A DNA stretch of 5,554 nucleotides from Bacteroidetes bacterium QH_10_64_19 (GTDB lineage Bacteria; Bacteroidota; Rhodothermia; Rhodothermales; Salinibacteraceae). Positions within the stretch are counted from its first letter, which is position 1, and each line of letters begins with the position of its first letter. Of this stretch, positions 1 to 5,554 are shown piece after piece. Under the pieces are notes generated by a model. It was not told the origin of the DNA. It saw only the letters and a list, made by a program, of their open reading frames with translations, and did not search any database. Where the stretch lies: assembly GCA_003023125.1 (NCBI GenBank), contig PXSY01000041.1, forward strand, positions 1-5,554, read 5' to 3'. The position numbers were made by a program, and so were the translations under genes.

Positions 1-726
1 ATAGAGGAACCGCGGCACAAGCTCATCGAGCAGCTCGCGGGCACCGGGCTCAAAGATGTAGTCGATGGCCCGTCCATTGTCCGGGAGCTGAAACGTGTCG
101 GTCTCTTCCTGCATCCCCGGCGTCTCAAACCGTTTCTCCGGGATGGGAAGCAGGGGCTCCGCGATCTGATTCTGGACGATCGTGTTCTTAAACTCGTTGT
201 AGACGAGCTTGACTTCGCCCCAGAGACCGCGCTCGAAGCCTTCTACGGCATCCTGCACCACCTGCTGAGCCACGTCGAACGTGAGGTCGTCGAAGATGCC
301 CTGATAGTCTCCGACGAGGCGGTAGCCCCGCTTTTGAAAGTGCTTGTGTCCCTTCTCACCTACGCACAGCAGAAACAACTCGTCGTTCTCCTCCTCCCGA
401 GCATAAGAGGTTTCGATCAGGTGCTCGGCCTTCTTTATCACGTCGCTGTTGAAGGACCCACACAGCCCCCGATCGGCCGTGATCACGATGACAAGCGCGC
501 CGGTGGCCTCGTCCGGCGCCTCGAAGAAGGGGTGGGCCGTCGGATCGAGCTCCTGCTTCAGGTGATTGGTGAGCTCGGCAATCTTGTAGGCGTACGGCCG
601 AGCCTCAAAAATCTGCTCCTGTGCCCGACGCAGCTTGGCGGCCGCCACCATCTTCATGGCCCGCGTCACCTGCTTGGTGTTTTCGACCGAGTCAATCCGG
701 CTCCGAATGTCGCGAAGATTCGCCAT
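1..726 (-). CDS. atpG: F1Fo ATP synthase gamma subunit (partial, C-terminus off the window)
   Basis: This gene encodes the central rotor shaft of F1, which turns inside the alpha3beta3 head and couples proton flow to ATP synthesis. The frame reads from the ATG at 726-724 without a stop to base 1, giving 242 codons. Bacterial gamma is usually about 285-295 residues, so roughly 45-50 residues are missing, including the C-terminal helix with the family signature. The N-terminal shaft helix is clear: it starts MANLRDIRSRIDSVENTKQV and continues through an AMKMVAAAKLRRAQ motif at about 23-36. The conserved TADRGLCGSFNS motif of the globular domain lies at 83-94. The loop around 108-116 is acidic (REEENDE). 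No Shine-Dalgarno sequence precedes the ATG; the upstream bases read TTGTTCAACCACCC. It lies 191 bp downstream of atpA on the same strand and is presumably cotranscribed. Identification is secure, and the truncation comes only from the window edge. Confidence 0.96.
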   Translation of the reverse strand, partial: MANLRDIRSRIDSVENTKQVTRAMKMVAAAKLRRAQEQIFEARPYAYKIAELTNHLKQELDPTAHPFFEAPDEATGALVIVITADRGLCGSFNSDVIKKAEHLIETSYAREEENDELFLLCVGEKGHKHFQKRGYRLVGDYQGIFDDLTFDVAQQVVQDAVEGFERGLWGEVKLVYNEFKNTIVQNQIAEPLLPIPEKRFETPGMQEETDTFQLPDNGRAIDYIFEPGARELLDELVPRFLY

Positions 727-917
727 GGGTGGTTGAACAAATCTAATTGGGGAAGCTGAGAATGCCCCTGTGAGGCCGTTCAGACGGAAGCAGCCTGGTT
801 TTACGCTCAGTTTTAGTCATGAGTGAATGAGGCATGAGTGATGAGGCATGAGGAATGTTCTTCGGGACCCCCCACTCATAACCCATGACTCATCACTCGT
901 GACTCACAGACTCAAGG
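727..917. other. Intergenic region atpA-atpG (191 bp)
   Basis: This is the largest gap in the cluster and no gene is visible in it. Bases 816-910 hold an imperfect inverted repeat built of 7-base units (listed separately). Bases 727-815, next to the atpG start, are more AT-rich. They contain a short GGGG/CCCC pairing (749-752 with 765-768) and, on the minus strand, TAGATTTG at 745-738, which matches the Bacteroidota -7 element TAnnTTTG. I see no matching -33 TTTG at the expected distance, so I do not call a promoter. Confidence 0.6.
816..910. repeat. Heptad-repeat inverted repeat between atpA and atpG
   Basis: Bases 828-852 and 882-906 are inverted copies matching at 21 of 25 positions, separated by 29 bases. 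Each arm is itself a run of degenerate 7-base units. On the left these are GTCATGA (816-822), GTGAATGA (8 bases, 823-830), GGCATGA (831-837), GTGATGA (838-844) and GGCATGA (845-851). On the right they are TCATAAC, CCATGAC, TCATCAC, TCGTGAC and TCACAGA (876-910), the complement of the same consensus. Transcribed from the minus strand it would form a long hairpin just after the atpA stop codon at 918-920. It has no T-run directly after the stem, so a classical intrinsic terminator is not supported, and atpG needs read-through. Confidence 0.8.
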
Positions 918-2570
918 CTACGCTGCGGCGCCTTCGGCCAGGACGTCCTCCTCTTCCTCCTCATCCTGCTCCGCGTAGACATCGGCAAGGTCCTCGGCAA
1001 CAGATTCGAAGGCATCCTCGGCCGCGTCCGTGAGCTCTTCCGTCTCCCGGATTTCGGTAAGCACCTCTTCGTGTTGGAGGCGGAGGCGCTCCAGGTACTC
1101 GTCCTCGAACTCCCCAATATCATCGATCTCCACGTCGTCAAGGTAGCCGTTGATGGCAGCGTGGATGATGGCCACCTGCTCCTCGAGCGGCACCGGATCG
1201 AACTGGTCCTGGTTGAGGATCTCGACCAGCCGCTCTCCACGGTTCAACTGCTGCTGTGTCGACTCATCGAGATCGGAGCCAAACTTGGCGAAGGCCTCCA
1301 GCTCCCGGTACTGGGACAGGTCAATGCGGAGCGTGCCCGCCACCTCCTTCATGGCGCCGACCTGGGCCGACCCTCCGACGCGCGAGACGGATGTCCCCAC
1401 GTCAATCGCGGGACGAATGCCTTCGTTGAACAGGTCCTTCTCCAGATAAATCTGCCCGTCCGTAATCGAGATCACATTCGTCGGGATGTAGGCCGACACG
1501 TCCCCGGCCTGCGTCTCAATGACCGGCAGGGCCGTGAGCGATCCGCCGCCCTCCACCTTGTCCGCGAGCGTGTCCGGCAGGTTGTTCATGTTGGCCGCCA
1601 CCTCGTCCACGTCGATGATTTTGGCGGCCCGCTCCAGGAGGCGGCTGTGGAGGTAGAAGATGTCTCCCGGGTAGGCTTCGCGTCCCGGCGGACGGCGCAG
1701 CAGGAGCGAGAGCTCGCGGTAGGCCACGGCCTGCTTGGACAGGTCGTCGAAGCAGACGAGCGAATCGCGGCCCGTGTCCCGAAAGAACTCCCCGATGCAC
1801 GCCCCAGCGAACGGCGCGACGTATTGGAGGGGCGTGGGCATGGCGGCGGAGGCGTTGATAATCACCGTGTGCTCCATGGCCCCGTTGCGCTCCAGGTCGC
1901 GCTGCACCTGGGCGACGGTGGAGTCTTTCTGCCCTACGGCCACGTATACGCAGTACACCGGATCCCCGCTTTCGGTATCGTCCCGATGGGTCTTGCGCTG
2001 GTTGATGATCGTGTCGGTGAGGACCGCCGTCTTCCCGGTCTGCCGGTCGCCGATCACGAGTTCGCGCTGGCCGCGCCCGATCGGAATCATCGAGTCGATG
2101 GCCTTGATCCCCGTCTGCAGCGGCTCCTCCACCGGCTCCCGATAGATGACACCGGGGGCCTTGCGCTCTAGTGGAAGAAGCGTCTTTTCCCCCTCAATGG
2201 GGCCCTGTCCGTCGAGCGGGCGGCCAAGTGGGTCGATGACGCGGCCAAGCATGTTTTCGTTGACCCCGACCGAGGCGATGCGGCCGGTCCGCCGGGCCTC
2301 ATCCCCTTCGCTGACCGCGTCAACATCGCCGAAGAGAGCGACCCCGACGTTGTCTTCTTCGAGGTTCAGCACCATCCCTTCCACGTTCTGCTCGGGAAAC
2401 TCCACGAGCTCACGGGACTGGGCGTTGCTCAGGCCATAGAGGGTCGCGATCCCGTCACCGGCCTCCAGCACGGTCCCGGCCTCGTACTCCTCCGCCTCGG
2501 TCTCGAAGTTGCCGAGTTCACGGCGGAGAATGTCGGTGACTTCGTCGGGTCGTATGCTACCGTTGGACAT
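918..2570 (-). CDS. atpA: F1Fo ATP synthase alpha subunit
   Basis: Alpha forms the F1 hexamer with beta and carries the non-catalytic nucleotide sites. The product has 550 residues, against about 513 in E. coli. The order is an N-terminal delta-contact helix and beta-barrel (to about 95), the nucleotide-binding domain (about 96-380) and a C-terminal helical bundle. The P-loop GDRQTGKT is at 174-181, the Walker B stretch SLVCFDD at 270-276, a conserved [20 protein letters not shown] block at 284-303, and the family signature [10 protein letters not shown] at 387-396. The following R397 corresponds to the arginine that reaches the catalytic site. Two features are unusual: about nine extra residues at 192-205 ([11 protein letters not shown]) before [11 protein letters not shown], and a long acidic C-terminus with EQDEEEEED at 534-542. 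The ATG at 2570-2568 gives the expected N-terminus; the bases before it (CTGCGTATCTT) contain no Shine-Dalgarno. It lies 180 bp after atpH. Confidence 0.98.
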
Positions 2571-2750
2571 AAGATACGCAGAGATTAAGTAATCAAGTCG
2601 TCGAGAGCGAGCGGCGACAAGACGTTAGCCCCGGTCAACACGGCTCACACTTCGAAGCAGAAATTTGTAGCGGCGTTCGAGCCTTTCGTATTGCACATCG
2701 GGACGTATTGCGCACCGGGAACCGCAGGAATGCGCACTACGCAATACGCG
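2571..2750. other. Intergenic region atpH-atpA (180 bp)
   Basis: No gene is visible here. The part next to atpH (2687-2760) carries a heptad dyad listed separately. The part next to atpA has a short possible hairpin, GTCGTCG (2597-2603) against CGGCGAC (2612-2618), with one imperfect pair and an 8-base loop. An AT-rich stretch (2571-2596) lies just before the atpA start. An internal promoter for atpA-atpG would fit here, but I find no convincing -35/-10 or Bacteroidota -33/-7 pair. Its size is unusual for a gap inside an ATP synthase operon. Confidence 0.55.
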
Positions 2751-2760
2751 CTACGCCACC
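2687..2760. repeat. Heptad-repeat dyad at the atpH 3' end
   Basis: Four tandem 7-base units, CGCACTA, CGCAATA, CGCGCTA and CGCCACC, fill 2733-2760 in perfect phase. Opposite them are two copies of the complementary word CGTATTGC, at 2687-2694 and 2704-2711. The perfect 9-base arms CGTATTGCG (2704-2712) and CGCAATACG (2740-2748) flank a 27-base centre. The array overlaps the end of atpH: the TAG stop (2753-2751) is the last three bases of the unit CGCGCTA, and the final codons GTG-GCG lie in the next unit. The sequence is unrelated to the other two dyads, but the 7-base period and dyad form are the same. Confidence 0.7.
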
Positions 2761-3323
2761 TGTCCGTTGCCGTCCGTCGAAAGCCTGGTCTCCCGGAACC
2801 GATCCCGAAGCACGTTGAGCTGGTTGCGCACGCTTCCGTCGAAGACACGGTCGCCGATCCGAATTACCACCCCGCCAATCAAGTCCGGGTCCTCACTGAG
2901 GTGCAGCCGAATGTCCTTTTCGGTCTTCTCTTCTAGCACCTCAACGAGCGTCTCCCGATCCTCGTCGGACAGCGGGTGGGCCACAGTTACCTCTGCATCG
3001 ACAATGCCACGGTGCTCGTCCCGCAGCGACTGATACTCGTCGAGAATCGCTTTGGTGAGGGTTTCTCGATCTTTCTGAACCAGGAGTCGCAGGAACCGTA
3101 TCGTGAGGCCCTCAATCCGATTCCCCAGCAGTTCCTGGATGATCGTGTCTTTTTTCCCCTGCGGGATCACAGGACTTTCGAAAAAGCGGGAGAGCTCGCG
3201 GTTCGACTCAAGGCTGCGCCGAAGCATCAGGACGTCCTCGTCCACGGCCTTAAGCACACCGGCTTGGTCGGCCTCTTCGTATAACGCGGTCGCGTATCGC
3301 CGGGTAACCGTGCGCTGGCTCAT
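2751..3323 (-). CDS. atpH: F1Fo ATP synthase delta subunit (OSCP homologue)
   Basis: Delta sits on top of the alpha3beta3 head and ties it to the b-subunit peripheral stalk, so that the head does not turn with the rotor. The 190-residue product is close to the usual length of about 180. The N-terminal helical domain opens MSQRTVTRRYATALYEEADQ and includes the conserved FFESPVIPQGKK at 48-58. The C-terminal family signature is clear at about 143-170, with LIGGVVIRIGDRVFDGSVRN at 148-167. The frame extends upstream to 3371, but the ATG at 3323-3321 is chosen. It gives the canonical RRYATALYE N-terminus, whereas the extra 16 residues would be translated from the upstream repeat. No Shine-Dalgarno is present (upstream CCTGCACTTGT). 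The last codons and the stop fall inside a heptad repeat. The sequence is rich in Asp, Glu and Arg. Confidence 0.97.
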   Translation of the reverse strand: MSQRTVTRRYATALYEEADQAGVLKAVDEDVLMLRRSLESNRELSRFFESPVIPQGKKDTIIQELLGNRIEGLTIRFLRLLVQKDRETLTKAILDEYQSLRDEHRGIVDAEVTVAHPLSDEDRETLVEVLEEKTEKDIRLHLSEDPDLIGGVVIRIGDRVFDGSVRNQLNVLRDRFRETRLSTDGNGQVA

Positions 3324-3336
3324 ACAAGTGCAGGAT

Positions 3337-3394
3337 TGGAGGGTTGAACGTGGAAACGTTAGAACGCTCAACCTTCAAACGTTCAACGCTCCAG
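3337..3394. repeat. Heptad-repeat inverted repeat between atpF and atpH
   Basis: Bases 3337-3351 and 3379-3393 are inverted copies matching at 14 of 15 positions, around a 27-base centre. The centre and arms together read as consecutive 7-8 base units. All but the last of them end in AAC: GTTGAAC (3343-3349), GTGGAAAC, GTTAGAAC, GCTCAAC, CTTCAAAC, GTTCAAC (3381-3387), then GCTCCAG. The element fills most of the 76-bp gap between the atpF stop (3402-3400) and the atpH start (3323). In minus-strand RNA it would form a hairpin ending about 13 bases before the atpH start codon, so it could affect initiation. That role is inference. Confidence 0.75.
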
Positions 3395-3399
3395 CGAAA

Positions 3400-3909
3400 T
3401 CAGTTCGTCGAAAAGTCGTCGAGGGCATCCGTCACGAGTTGACGGTGCCGGTCGGCATCCAGGTCCTTCTCGATGATTTTCTGCGCCGCCTCGATGGCCA
3501 GGTCGGCCACCTCATCGCGGAGCTCTTGGAGCGCGGCCTGCTTCTCACGCTCAATTTCGGCCTCCGCCTGTTCCTTCATCTGCTGGATGCGCCGGCGCGT
3601 CTTGGCCTCTTCCTCTTCCCGCAGCTCCTCGGCCGACTCACGGGCCTGGCGGATGATGCTCTGGGCCTCCTGTTCGGCGTTGCGGCGAGCCTCTTCGTTC
3701 TCGGCCTGAATCTCCTTGGCCTCGGCAAGGGCTTCCTCAGCACGCTGGATGGAGCTTTCGATCTCTGCCTCGCGCTGTTCGAGGGCCTCGGTGATGGGCC
3801 CCCAGCCAAACCAGTAGAGCAGGGCCAGGAAGAGCAGAAACGCAATGGTCTTCCAGACGATGAGCCCCAGCGACGGGGTCACGAGGCTCTGGGCGAGCAA
3901 CGCAGTCAT
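3400..3909 (-). CDS. atpF: F1Fo ATP synthase b subunit
   Basis: Subunit b is the peripheral stalk: a membrane-anchored dimer whose long helix reaches up to delta and the alpha subunits. The product has 169 residues. A short N-terminal segment is followed by a single membrane helix at about 13-35 (SLGLIVWKTIAFLLFLALLY). Next comes the conserved juxtamembrane block FGWGPITEALEQREAEIE at 34-51. A very charged, heptad-like Ala/Glu/Arg/Gln coiled coil follows to about 150, ending in the usual delta-binding region (LRDEVADLAIEAAQKIIEKD at 130-149). The length and layout match ordinary bacterial b. Only one b-type gene is present here, so a b/b' pair is not indicated within the window. The start is the ATG at 3909-3907; the upstream bases GCCTGCTGCTGACC contain no Shine-Dalgarno. 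It follows atpE by 75 bp. Confidence 0.96.
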   Translation of the reverse strand: MTALLAQSLVTPSLGLIVWKTIAFLLFLALLYWFGWGPITEALEQREAEIESSIQRAEEALAEAKEIQAENEEARRNAEQEAQSIIRQARESAEELREEEEAKTRRRIQQMKEQAEAEIEREKQAALQELRDEVADLAIEAAQKIIEKDLDADRHRQLVTDALDDFSTN

Positions 3910-3984
3910 GGTCAGCAGCAGGCTTTAGCACGATGGAATGAACGGACACCGACGCGTGGCGCGCCGGCCGGTCGCCTCAGTCGT
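3910..3984. other. Intergenic region atpE-atpF (75 bp), with a GC-rich block
   Basis: No gene is visible. Bases 3958-3976 (GGCGCGCCGGCCGGTCGCC) are almost pure G+C and contain two overlapping palindromes, GGCGCGCC and CCGGCCGG, that could fold back in the RNA. There is no following T-run, so I do not call a terminator. Unlike the three gaps further downstream, it carries no heptad repeat. Confidence 0.5.
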
Positions 3985-4221
3985 CTAGATGAAGATGTTC
4001 ACGGCGAGGAGCAGGCAGATGATCAGGGCAAACAGTGCCACACCCTCAATGAGGGCGGCGGAAATAATCATCAGGTTCCGGATGTCGTCGGTGGCTTCCG
4101 GCTGGCGGGCCGCGCCTTCCATCGACGAGCTGGCCAACCACCCAATTCCAACGCCGGCGCCAATGGCGGCGAGTCCGGCGCCAATTCCGGCAGCAAGGTA
4201 CGCAAGAGCAGCAGATCCCAT
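3985..4221 (-). CDS. atpE: F1Fo ATP synthase c subunit (proton-carrying ring)
   Basis: Subunit c forms the membrane rotor ring; each copy carries one ion on a buried carboxylate. The 78-residue product is a two-helix hairpin of ordinary length. Helix 1 holds the packing motif GAGVGIG at 21-27 (GxGxGxG), the polar loop RQP is at 39-41, and helix 2 carries the ion-binding Glu59 in AALIEGVALF (55-64). The sodium-type ligands known from Ilyobacter (Gln in helix 1, Val-Ala-Glu-Ser and Tyr in helix 2) are replaced by Ile26, Leu57, Gly60 and Phe64. This points to proton coupling, which is inferred from motif comparison. The start ATG at 4221-4219 has no Shine-Dalgarno (upstream AAGAACTGAATACC), although c must be made in large excess. 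It follows atpB by 78 bp. Confidence 0.97.
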   Translation of the reverse strand: MGSAALAYLAAGIGAGLAAIGAGVGIGWLASSSMEGAARQPEATDDIRNLMIISAALIEGVALFALIICLLLAVNIFI

Positions 4222-4299
4222 GGTATTCAGTTCTTAGTGAAGTAGGAATGAGTTCTAGTACAGGCAAAAGATCTCCAGCGGGAAGTCGCCCGGTAGAGA
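4222..4299. other. Intergenic region atpB-atpE (78 bp)
   Basis: No gene is visible. On the minus strand the first part holds a weak CGGG/CCCG pairing with a 6-base loop, followed some bases later by CTTTTG. The part nearest atpE is AT-rich and looks unstructured, which would suit efficient initiation without a Shine-Dalgarno. No heptad repeat is seen. I do not call a terminator, promoter or processing site. Confidence 0.4.
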
Positions 4300-5523
4300 T
4301 TATGCTGAGGTCGGTTCCACCGCCTCTTCGACAGCGTCGAGACGCTCTTCCAGCCGCCCCGTCGTGAGCGTATCGTCGTCCTCATGCTCCTCGTAATGGT
4401 GCTCCTCCACGGCCATGCCGATGAAGAGGGCCGAGAGGATGGTAAACACATACGCCTGAATGAAGGCAACCAGCAGCTTGAGCAGCAAGATAAAGACGGT
4501 GAATCCTATGCTAATGACGACGGTCCCCACTGCCGCCACCTCCCCAAAGAGAATGTTCATGATGAAGATGAGCCCGATCAGGGTGAAGATGATTAGCGCC
4601 CCGCCCATCATGTTGGCGAAGAGACGAATCGCCAGCGCGAGGTGTCGCATGATCAGCCCCACGATCTCGATCGGGACGAAAATAATCCGAACAAATACGG
4701 GAGCGTCCGGGGGGCCGGTCAGAAGCTCCTCGTAATGATCTTTCGAGCTGTAGAGGAGAACAATGGCGAACGTCACCACCGCTAGAACTCCCGTGACGGC
4801 AACGTTGGACGTGGCCGCGCCTGCGTAAGGAACGAGCCCAAGGATGTTGGCGACCAGAATGAAGAAGAACGCGGTGAGAAGATACGGCAGGAACGTGCGC
4901 CACTTCTCGCCCTGAATGTTGGGCTTCGCGATTTCATCCCGGATGAAGACAACCAGAACCTCCATCATGTTCTGCAGCACGCCGTGCGGGGCCTCCGTGC
5001 GGCCCACGCCGTTCTTATAGCGCCGGGCCAGTGGAATGAACACGCCCAGCACGACCAGCATCGCCAGGAGCCCGAACACGAAATGGCGAGAAATGGAGAG
5101 GTCGACCACCACGCTGCCTTCCGCCCGCTGCACCGAGCTGTGCAGATGCTCATCGGCGGCAATGGCCTCCTCAAGCTCCGCCCCCTGTGCAATCAACCCT
5201 CCGTGCCCGTCCGACTCCCCGCCATCGTGGGAAATCCCGTAGGGCCCGTTCCGAAGCAGCGACGTTGTGCTTCCGTAAGCCTCAACCCCGAGCTCTCCGT
5301 CCGCCGTGCGGACGAGCATGATGCGGGGAAGCTCCACGTTGGCAAACGGCTTGAAATTGAGGTAGTAGCCGTCCTCGGCGTGGCCCAGAATCGTGTTATT
5401 GACAATTCCTTCGAGCGTAACGTCTCCCTCCTCGGCCGCCTCCGCAGGCGTCGCCGTCAATACGGGCCCCAGTCCCAGCACGAGGAGAGCGACAAGTCCG
5501 AGGGAGCGGGCGCGAGCCATCAT
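4300..5523 (-). CDS. atpB: F1Fo ATP synthase a subunit, with signal peptide and extended N-terminal domain
   Basis: Subunit a is the stator half of the proton channel. Numbering is from an ATG at 5550; I prefer the paired ATGs at codons 10-11 (5523 and 5520), which open a signal peptide. That peptide has an ARAR positive end, a Leu/Val-rich core and an AEA cleavage site near residue 39. The product is about 407 residues, much longer than the 271 of E. coli. Residues 40-155 form an acidic domain outside the membrane. Membrane helices follow at about 157-175, 220-242, 250-267, 288-308, 317-335 and 340-380. The essential channel arginine is R309 in AIRLFANMM, and Q365 lies in FIQAYVFTIL. The tail after 380 is acidic and His-containing. 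The positions matching E. coli Glu219 and His245 are A318 and K358, an unusual pair. The gene's own promoter would lie beyond the window. Confidence 0.95.
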   Translation of the reverse strand: MMARARSLGLVALLVLGLGPVLTATPAEAAEEGDVTLEGIVNNTILGHAEDGYYLNFKPFANVELPRIMLVRTADGELGVEAYGSTTSLLRNGPYGISHDGGESDGHGGLIAQGAELEEAIAADEHLHSSVQRAEGSVVVDLSISRHFVFGLLAMLVVLGVFIPLARRYKNGVGRTEAPHGVLQNMMEVLVVFIRDEIAKPNIQGEKWRTFLPYLLTAFFFILVANILGLVPYAGAATSNVAVTGVLAVVTFAIVLLYSSKDHYEELLTGPPDAPVFVRIIFVPIEIVGLIMRHLALAIRLFANMMGGALIIFTLIGLIFIMNILFGEVAAVGTVVISIGFTVFILLLKLLVAFIQAYVFTILSALFIGMAVEEHHYEEHEDDDTLTTGRLEERLDAVEEAVEPTSA

Positions 5524-5554
5524 GATGTGTTTCTCGTACGACAGCAGCATCGGG

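Follow-up and report, generated by a model that had tools for sequence, protein, structure and literature searches.

Repeat arrays in three gaps of an atp operon

The DNA analyzed here, which we call the window, is a stretch of 5,554 nucleotides from Bacteroidetes bacterium QH_10_64_19, a member of the Salinibacteraceae (GenBank assembly GCA_003023125.1, contig PXSY01000041.1, positions 1 to 5,554 of the forward strand). According to family-profile matches, the window is filled by a minus-strand run of genes, atpB-atpE-atpF-atpH-atpA-atpG. Three of the gaps between them, named below after their flanking genes as F-H, H-A, and A-G, contain the subject of this work, namely tandem arrays of 7-base units, some of which face each other as the two arms of a hairpin (a dyad). 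The nearest relative genome that we compared (G019) is 80% identical across 3.3 kb, and the nearest named relative among the matches listed is Salinivenus lutea (AtpA, 86%). We propose, as a tentative reading to which we give a little less than even weight, that the three gaps hold members of a fast-evolving class of intergenic hairpins built of 7- and 8-base arrays.

A preliminary description of the window had reported opposed arrays with a 7-base period in all three gaps. Counting matches between positions seven bases apart (lag 7), we found a maximum per 21 positions of 14 in F-H, of 16 in H-A when this gap was extended to position 2765, and of 16 in A-G. Lag 7 was the best among lags 3-13 in each of the three gaps; beyond this range, lag 15 reaches 15 in F-H, and in A-G lag 14 equals lag 7. 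Compared with 2000 resamples, which here and below are first-order Markov sequences and not exact dinucleotide shuffles, the lag-7 signal of the gap alone had a P value of 0.0035 in F-H, 0.0005 in A-G, and 0.12 in H-A (0.045, 0.0025, and 0.64, respectively, when any lag from 4 to 12 was allowed). After inclusion of 15 bases of the upstream gene, the P value was 0.005 in F-H, and the signal was reached by 0/2000 resamples in both H-A and A-G. Given that the H-A signal reaches this strength with 15 bases of atpH and lies within chance in the gap alone, the H-A array is real, but it is positioned across the atpH stop codon. The two remaining gaps, E-F and B-E, which had been described as free of arrays, indeed gave P values of 0.18 and 0.48 alone, and of 0.17 and 0.55 with the 15 upstream bases (2000 resamples).

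The hairpins of F-H and A-G exceed those of 60/60 resamples, with RNA fold z-scores of -4.6 and -3.8, and in both cases the arms are convergent with the G-rich strand first. The H-A hairpin lies within chance (reached by 17/60 resamples, and P 0.12 in a second test that included bases of the upstream gene), and its RNA fold is not beyond chance either. The dyads initially described thus stand as arrays in all three gaps, in H-A only with the end of atpH, and the H-A hairpin does not stand. The period of F-H is ambiguous, with lag 8 giving 13/21 on both sides, so that this array could equally be called an 8-base or a 7-base one. A central spacer of 27-29 bases, thought to be common to the three gaps, had to be abandoned, as the best loops measure 9 bases in F-H, 19 in A-G, and 27 or 31 in H-A, depending on whether two perfect 9-base arms or longer imperfect arms are taken. 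An Rfam search returned no family match, a terminator scan of positions 700-3450 covering loops of 3-8 bases found a single site, within atpH, and, judged by eye, neither the F-H nor the A-G stem is followed by a T run in the operon sense. All coordinates are collected in Table 1.

Table 1. Genes, arrays, and hairpins of the window (dot, no strand assigned)
Feature	Position	Strand	Family or remark
atpG, F1 gamma subunit, continues beyond the window	1..726	-	TIGR01146
A-G gap hairpin	814..920 (arms 814-857 and 877-920)	.	33/44 positions pair, loop 19
A-G lag-7 arrays, TGAGTSA type	822-862 and 866-909	.	
atpA, F1 alpha subunit	918..2570	-	TIGR00962
H-A perfect 9-base arms, two	2704-2712 and 2740-2748	.	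separated by 27 bases
H-A junction lag-7 array, GCGTATT type	2725-2762 (feature 2704..2762)	.	overruns the atpH stop codon (2751-2753)
atpH, F1 delta subunit	2751..3323	-	TIGR01145
F-H gap hairpin	3329..3398 (arms 3337-3360 and 3370-3393)	.	19/24 positions pair, loop 9
F-H mixed 7/8-base array, GTTGAAC type	3329..3398	.	
atpF, Fo b subunit	3400..3909	-	TIGR01144
E-F gap, control	3910..3984	.	no array, no hairpin beyond chance
atpE, Fo c subunit	3985..4221	-	TIGR01260
B-E gap, control	4222..4299	.	no array; hairpin within chance (reached by 8/60 resamples)
atpB, Fo a subunit	4300..5520	-	TIGR01131

We then examined the same junctions in relatives. G019 displays lag-7 arrays at all three (P 0.003, 0.003, and 0/300), where, by eye, the unit types are those of the window, the numbers of units differ, and the A-G spacer looks conserved. 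Across 17 relatives, 8/51 lag-7 tests of the F-H, H-A, and A-G gaps gave P <0.05, compared with 2/34 tests of E-F and B-E, both of them from G011, and 12 of the 17 have no lag-7 array (P <0.05) at any of the three gaps. By eye, GTTGAAC-like units can be recognized at F-H in five genomes (the window, G017, G019, G020, and G021), and the F-H hairpin is beyond chance in all five, with a lag-7 signal in the window and G019 only. In a distant member of the Bacteroidota, from the Saprospiraceae, heptamer arrays lie near atpA (L043:8175-8243, 8687-8722, and 9899-9978), and two of these are, by eye, directly upstream of atpA on opposite strands.

An intergenic array class in related genomes

Genome-wide scans were carried out in relatives from the window's family rather than in its own genome, using stretches, mostly of 20 kb, from four of them (G015, G016, G017, and G019), which amount to 1.78 Mb with 8.6% intergenic sequence. 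Open reading frames (ORFs) were called crudely, longest first; arrays with at least 60% of their length in ORFs were left out before counting or, in the comparison of lags, scored as coding (with a 50% cut-off in some counts, in the style used for other taxa), arrays with a strong 1-4 base periodicity were removed in all array scans, and hairpins with a loop >60 were removed. At a threshold of 16/21, we found 65 lag-7 arrays, 32 of which were intergenic and 33 coding, and 31 lag-8 arrays (14 intergenic and 17 coding), only one of the 14 lag-8 arrays overlapping a lag-7 array. The intergenic and coding counts were 2 and 46 for lag 6, and 3 and 60 for lag 9. In 277 kb of G019, 17 intergenic lag-7 arrays were present at 15/21, versus a mean of 0.6 in five resamples, and a comparable excess was seen in G017 (7 versus 0.4) and G015 (9 versus 0.6). 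Requiring arms of at least 15 that exceeded all 10 resamples, 28/66 array elements were dyads and the other 38 were not (19/40 in G019, 3/10 in G015, 2/7 in G016, and 4/9 in G017). Their loops ranged from 4 to 44 bases with a median of 20, and only 6/28 fell within 25-29. The sampled relatives thus possess a class of 7- and 8-base arrays that is enriched between genes and frequently forms hairpins, and its presence in all four of them, the intergenic enrichment, and the excess over resamples bear out the earlier proposal of a common generating process acting on different sequences.

We next considered the units themselves in a set of 27 family genomes (G001-G027), also used for the protein searches described below. 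The searches covered CGTGA followed by two free bases, three times over, and CGTANTN, with overlapping matches summed by hand. The CGTGA-type unit gave 528 matches in 18/27 genomes, and its reversed pattern 2; the CGTANTN unit gave 219 matches in 14/27 genomes, and its reversed pattern 10. Fifteen genomes had at least 10 matches to the two types and nine had neither, among them G024, where a single lag-7 array was found in 96 kb. Individual genomes favor their own variants, as in G002, which by eye displays nearly only CGTGAAT and CGTGAGT at 49 listed places. The spacers of G002 L305-L314 hold several array types, some of them nested, with periods from 7 to about 10, and several of these spacers are G-rich on the left side and C-rich on the right even where the units differ. 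Different types can be blended in one orthologous array (CGTATTG-type and CGTGATG-type units in L230/L266 of G016 and G015), the G019 array L137 mixes CGTGA and AGTGA units, and in long arrays two unit variants take turns, giving a repeat of 14 bases; in L323 (G015:C1:2453600-2454500), for instance, CGTATTT and CGTATTG alternate. The heptamers of the window, which had been described as mutually unmatched and indeed have no direct match to one another, are therefore a handful of blended types, neither one type nor three independent ones, given that unit types are mixed within single arrays of relatives.

A unit grammar common to all arrays, which would have pointed to an ancestral unit, was considered and rejected. 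Rotation alignment of 67 array consensuses gave 4.98 bits (TG, then C or A, then GT) versus at most 3.10 in 40 letter-shuffled sets, and collapsing identical units left 4.18 versus at most 3.65, above 60/60 nulls. The signal was lost once similar units were collapsed, as the score was reached by 6/60 nulls at 6/7 shared positions and by 40/60 at 5/7. The published units of Xanthomonas (GGGAATC), Nostoc (GGGGAYT), and Beggiatoa (TAACTGA) matched the family units no better than letter-shuffled ones (P 0.66, 1.00, 1.00, and 0.36). The earlier view that the arrays do not descend from one element was too strongly worded in light of the F-H units of five genomes, the mixed types, and a dispersed dyad element of G019 described below.

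Arm order, stem pairs, and turnover

In 26 of the 28 dyads the G-rich arm comes first (5′), with one tie and one reverse, whereas 42 control hairpins without arrays, selected with arms of 12 and no resampling, were split 18:18 with 6 ties (Fisher P 6e-5 versus the dyads); holding the controls, like the dyads, to arms of at least 15 gave a split of 15:12 with 4 ties. As the order is identical whichever strand is read, it is a property of the dyad. The stem pairs are skewed as well, with a GC:CG ratio of 257:97 in the dyads compared with 320:318 in the 42 controls (Fisher P 5e-12), and a TA:AT ratio of 204:138 compared with 153:191 (Fisher P 7e-5). The pairs in these tests are not independent, and neither are all of the dyads, because many have a common unit type; outside the two commonest types, GC exceeded CG in 10/11 dyads. 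Among adjacent array pairs in the family, 11 were G-rich-first and 2 reverse, the latter with periods 12/9 and 9/7, after exclusion of same-sign pairs (2 plus-plus and 6 minus-minus) and of 11 unsigned adjacent pairs. A dyad with an 11-base array in a rumen member of the Bacteroidales (L017:17786-17892) has the reversed order, C-rich first.

To follow the turnover of the arrays, we compared G015 and G016, which are 91-98% identical where aligned (12 stretch pairs). Four dyad gaps are 65-81% identical between them, and 33 array-free gaps have a median identity of 93%, with 4/33 at or below 81%. Where both members of a stem pair had changed, pairing was retained in 14/21 cases; this and the other pair-change counts omit L185:8178, L187/L229, and L230/L266, which have no dyad, as well as L183 and L234:786 and 1777, which lack an aligned partner in G015 or G016, and exclude 55 pairs with a gap. 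Judged by eye, the G015 dyad at L182:18324 occupies a site where three relatives have other sequence of similar length, while the dyad at L183:1138 is an addition relative to G012.

Origin of the arrays

Slippage in 7- and 8-base steps combined with hairpin-templated copying is the best explanation that we can offer, although we ourselves lean slightly to the side of doubt, and we favor it mainly because of the stem-pair asymmetry. Intrastrand template switching has been argued to correct stems by their 5′ base, enriching G-C and U-A pairs via G-U intermediates (Monttinen and Loytynoja, PMC8794818), and both skews of the dyads (GC > CG and TA > AT) run in the direction derived there. According to this model, replication slippage would expand or contract each array in 7-, 8-, and 14-base steps, and a nascent 3′ end may fold back and copy the 5′ arm, such that the 3′ arm would be rewritten to match. 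Repeated intrastrand rewriting, with a transcript that tolerates G-U wobbles, would make the 5′ arm progressively richer in G and T and its 3′ counterpart richer in C and A, independently of the heptamer, and the different heptamers at different gaps would then be local states of one process rather than separate inventions. The nearly constant G-rich-first order hints at a replication copying error rather than a mobile gene, and the model can dispense with both a Y1_Tnp transposase and Ku. An effect on the atp mRNA, such as an intercistronic hairpin slowing decay, would be an optional by-product, because 12/17 relatives have no lag-7 array at the three gaps. The dyads resemble the template-switch hairpins of PMC8794818 in that inverted arms would be kept alike by copying one of them, with the G-C/U-A excess found in the 28 dyads, and differ from them in that the latter are argued for RNA genes and, in the available text, come without 7-base arrays.

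Several observations weigh against this explanation. In the dyad gaps of G015 and G016, identity is hardly higher at paired positions (67-90%) than at unpaired ones (60-91%), and one-sided changes break pairing 49 times and keep it 36 times. When the 7-base units of one arm were permuted, the match summed over 27 dyads fell only from 566 to 519.5, with 2/27 dyads at P <0.05, the A-G dyad of the window included. For T-A the skew is less pronounced than for G-C, with more TA than AT pairs in 19 dyads and fewer in 8, and the asymmetry argument requires template switching to favor the transcribed sense. Polarity as a universal rule was rejected, since among the signed opposed array pairs in 79 loci of other taxa, 2 were G-rich-first and 2 reverse. 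Moreover, the two sides have different units and yet the same order in 5/11 convergent array pairs, which is unexplained by the copying of one arm. Finally, the recurrence of the same few units at unlinked places, together with the genome-own variants, requires some spread between sites.

This last requirement leads to the main rival, the spread of small repeats, in which dyads would disperse as mobile or ectopically copied elements and then drift, the gaps being diverged copies of a few dispersed families; we consider it unlikely, though clearly the most serious of the alternatives. It fits the abundance of the two unit types in 18 and 14 of the 27 genomes (528 and 219 matches versus 2 and 10 for the reversed patterns), the genome-specific variants that, by eye, are repeated on many contigs of G002, and a dispersed element of G019, whose query copy and six other places have 97-186 bases in common, 78-88% identical, on and around a CGTGATG-type dyad, four of them having been aligned. 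In four other genomes searched with this element (L135:4190-4400), only its middle, around the dyad, was matched. However, by eye and with no formal search made, the orthologous alignments contain no target duplication or sharp end; at one site the dyad stands in place of unrelated-looking sequence of nearly the same length (157 and 154 bases); and ten G002 loci with masked arrays share flank matches of only 16-67 bases. Dispersed intergenic hairpins with a dedicated transposase are familiar as repetitive extragenic palindromic (REP) elements and REPINs with REP-associated tyrosine transposases (RAYTs). The dyads described here differ from them in that unit types and loops vary and Y1_Tnp does not follow the arrays: among the genomes with at least 10 unit matches, 8/15 have no Y1_Tnp match, and 5/9 genomes with no unit matches have one (Spearman -0.20, P 0.33), so that the REP-type transposase association envisaged at the outset fell away, other mobile proteins not having been searched for. 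Plasmid records searched with two dyads gave no match for one and a single match, over 32% of the query, for the other.

Selection on hairpins in the operon mRNA, acting as stabilizers, processing sites, or attenuators whose stem is kept while the sequence is free to change, appears less probable still. The good RNA folds of F-H and A-G (z -4.6 and -3.8) and the F-H hairpin beyond chance in the window, G017, G019, G020, and G021 speak for it, as does the rather low number of dyads between divergent genes (2/25 of those placed, versus 148/643 gaps, as raw counts with no significance test). Conversely, most relatives (12/17) lack a lag-7 array at the three gaps (P <0.05), the H-A fold lies within chance, broken pairs exceed kept ones among one-sided changes (49 versus 36), no Rfam family was matched, and a first arm rich in G would not be expected from selection for pairing alone. 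That order would be expected if, during double-strand break repair, the 3′ ends of both sides were extended by G/T-rich repeats and then joined into facing arrays, for the 3′ end of the G-rich strand nearly always points to the center, including in the 5 array pairs with unlike units, and one dyad sits in place of other sequence of nearly the same length. Yet Ku had no match in 27/27 family genomes (E 0.001), loops of 4-44 bases and the seemingly conserved A-G spacer (by eye) are unexpected of a simple joint, and no result obtained here indicates an enzyme, which makes break repair improbable. Ordinary low-complexity spacer DNA, shaped by chance or composition, would account for the H-A hairpin and for the loss of the unit grammar when units alike at 6/7 positions were collapsed (6/60 nulls). 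As a general explanation it is very improbable, given the resampling tests of the three arrays and of the G019 sample, the reversed-pattern controls, and the small intergenic counts at lags 6 and 9, and for the F-H and A-G dyads and the H-A array it is refuted.

Short tandem heptamers are known from cyanobacteria as short tandemly repeated repetitive (STRR) sequences. The speculative link to them raised at the outset is not shown, as the published heptamers tried match the family units no better than letter-shuffled ones, in a comparison for which no cyanobacterial genome was searched. The system closest to the dyads in arrangement is that of the GGGAATC heptamer arrays of Xanthomonas, described as mostly intergenic, dispersed, and able to form stem-loops, with two arrays convergent in 70 and 75 cases, and as variable between close species and, for the most part, free of any association with mobile elements (Rehm et al. 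2015, PMC4692102). The family resembles it in having dispersed intergenic heptamer arrays that face each other, here with the G-rich arm first in 26/28 dyads. As far as it is set out in the available text, the Xanthomonas work deals with one G-rich unit type per organism and emphasizes quadruplexes, whereas this family has several unit types per genome, 8-base units too, and a measured pair asymmetry. The same paper mentions three heptanucleotides of Calothrix. TAACTGA direct repeats are reported from marine Beggiatoaceae, and also from Cyanobacteria and five Bacteroidetes (PMC4679880); these heptamer arrays, too, lie mostly between genes, are in some cases interrupted by related units, and are patchy across phyla, and compared with them dyads are common in our family and the unit match is no better than chance. 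In the portions available to us of the literature on heptamer arrays and on Salinibacter intergenic tandem repeats we found no report of the pair skew or of several unit types with a common G-rich-first order. What is new here is thus the polarity, convergent heptad arrays being already known from Xanthomonas.

A broader interpretation, which we regard as doubtful, is that the opposed 7- and 8-base arrays are a genome-wide record of slippage and of intrastrand template switching in which the 5′ arm is always the source and the 3′ arm the copy. If this were true, the first arm would drift toward G and T whatever the starting sequence, the convergent arrays of Xanthomonas and comparable ones in some Bacteroidota would reflect the same process acting on other local units, and the process would help to account for the preference for G-C and U-A in RNA stems generally. 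Bacterial heptamer arrays have been catalogued for a long time with no agreement on their origin, and the polarity together with the pair skew makes the mutational question testable. Fast-changing hairpins inside a central operon are also of consequence for comparisons of operon expression across species.

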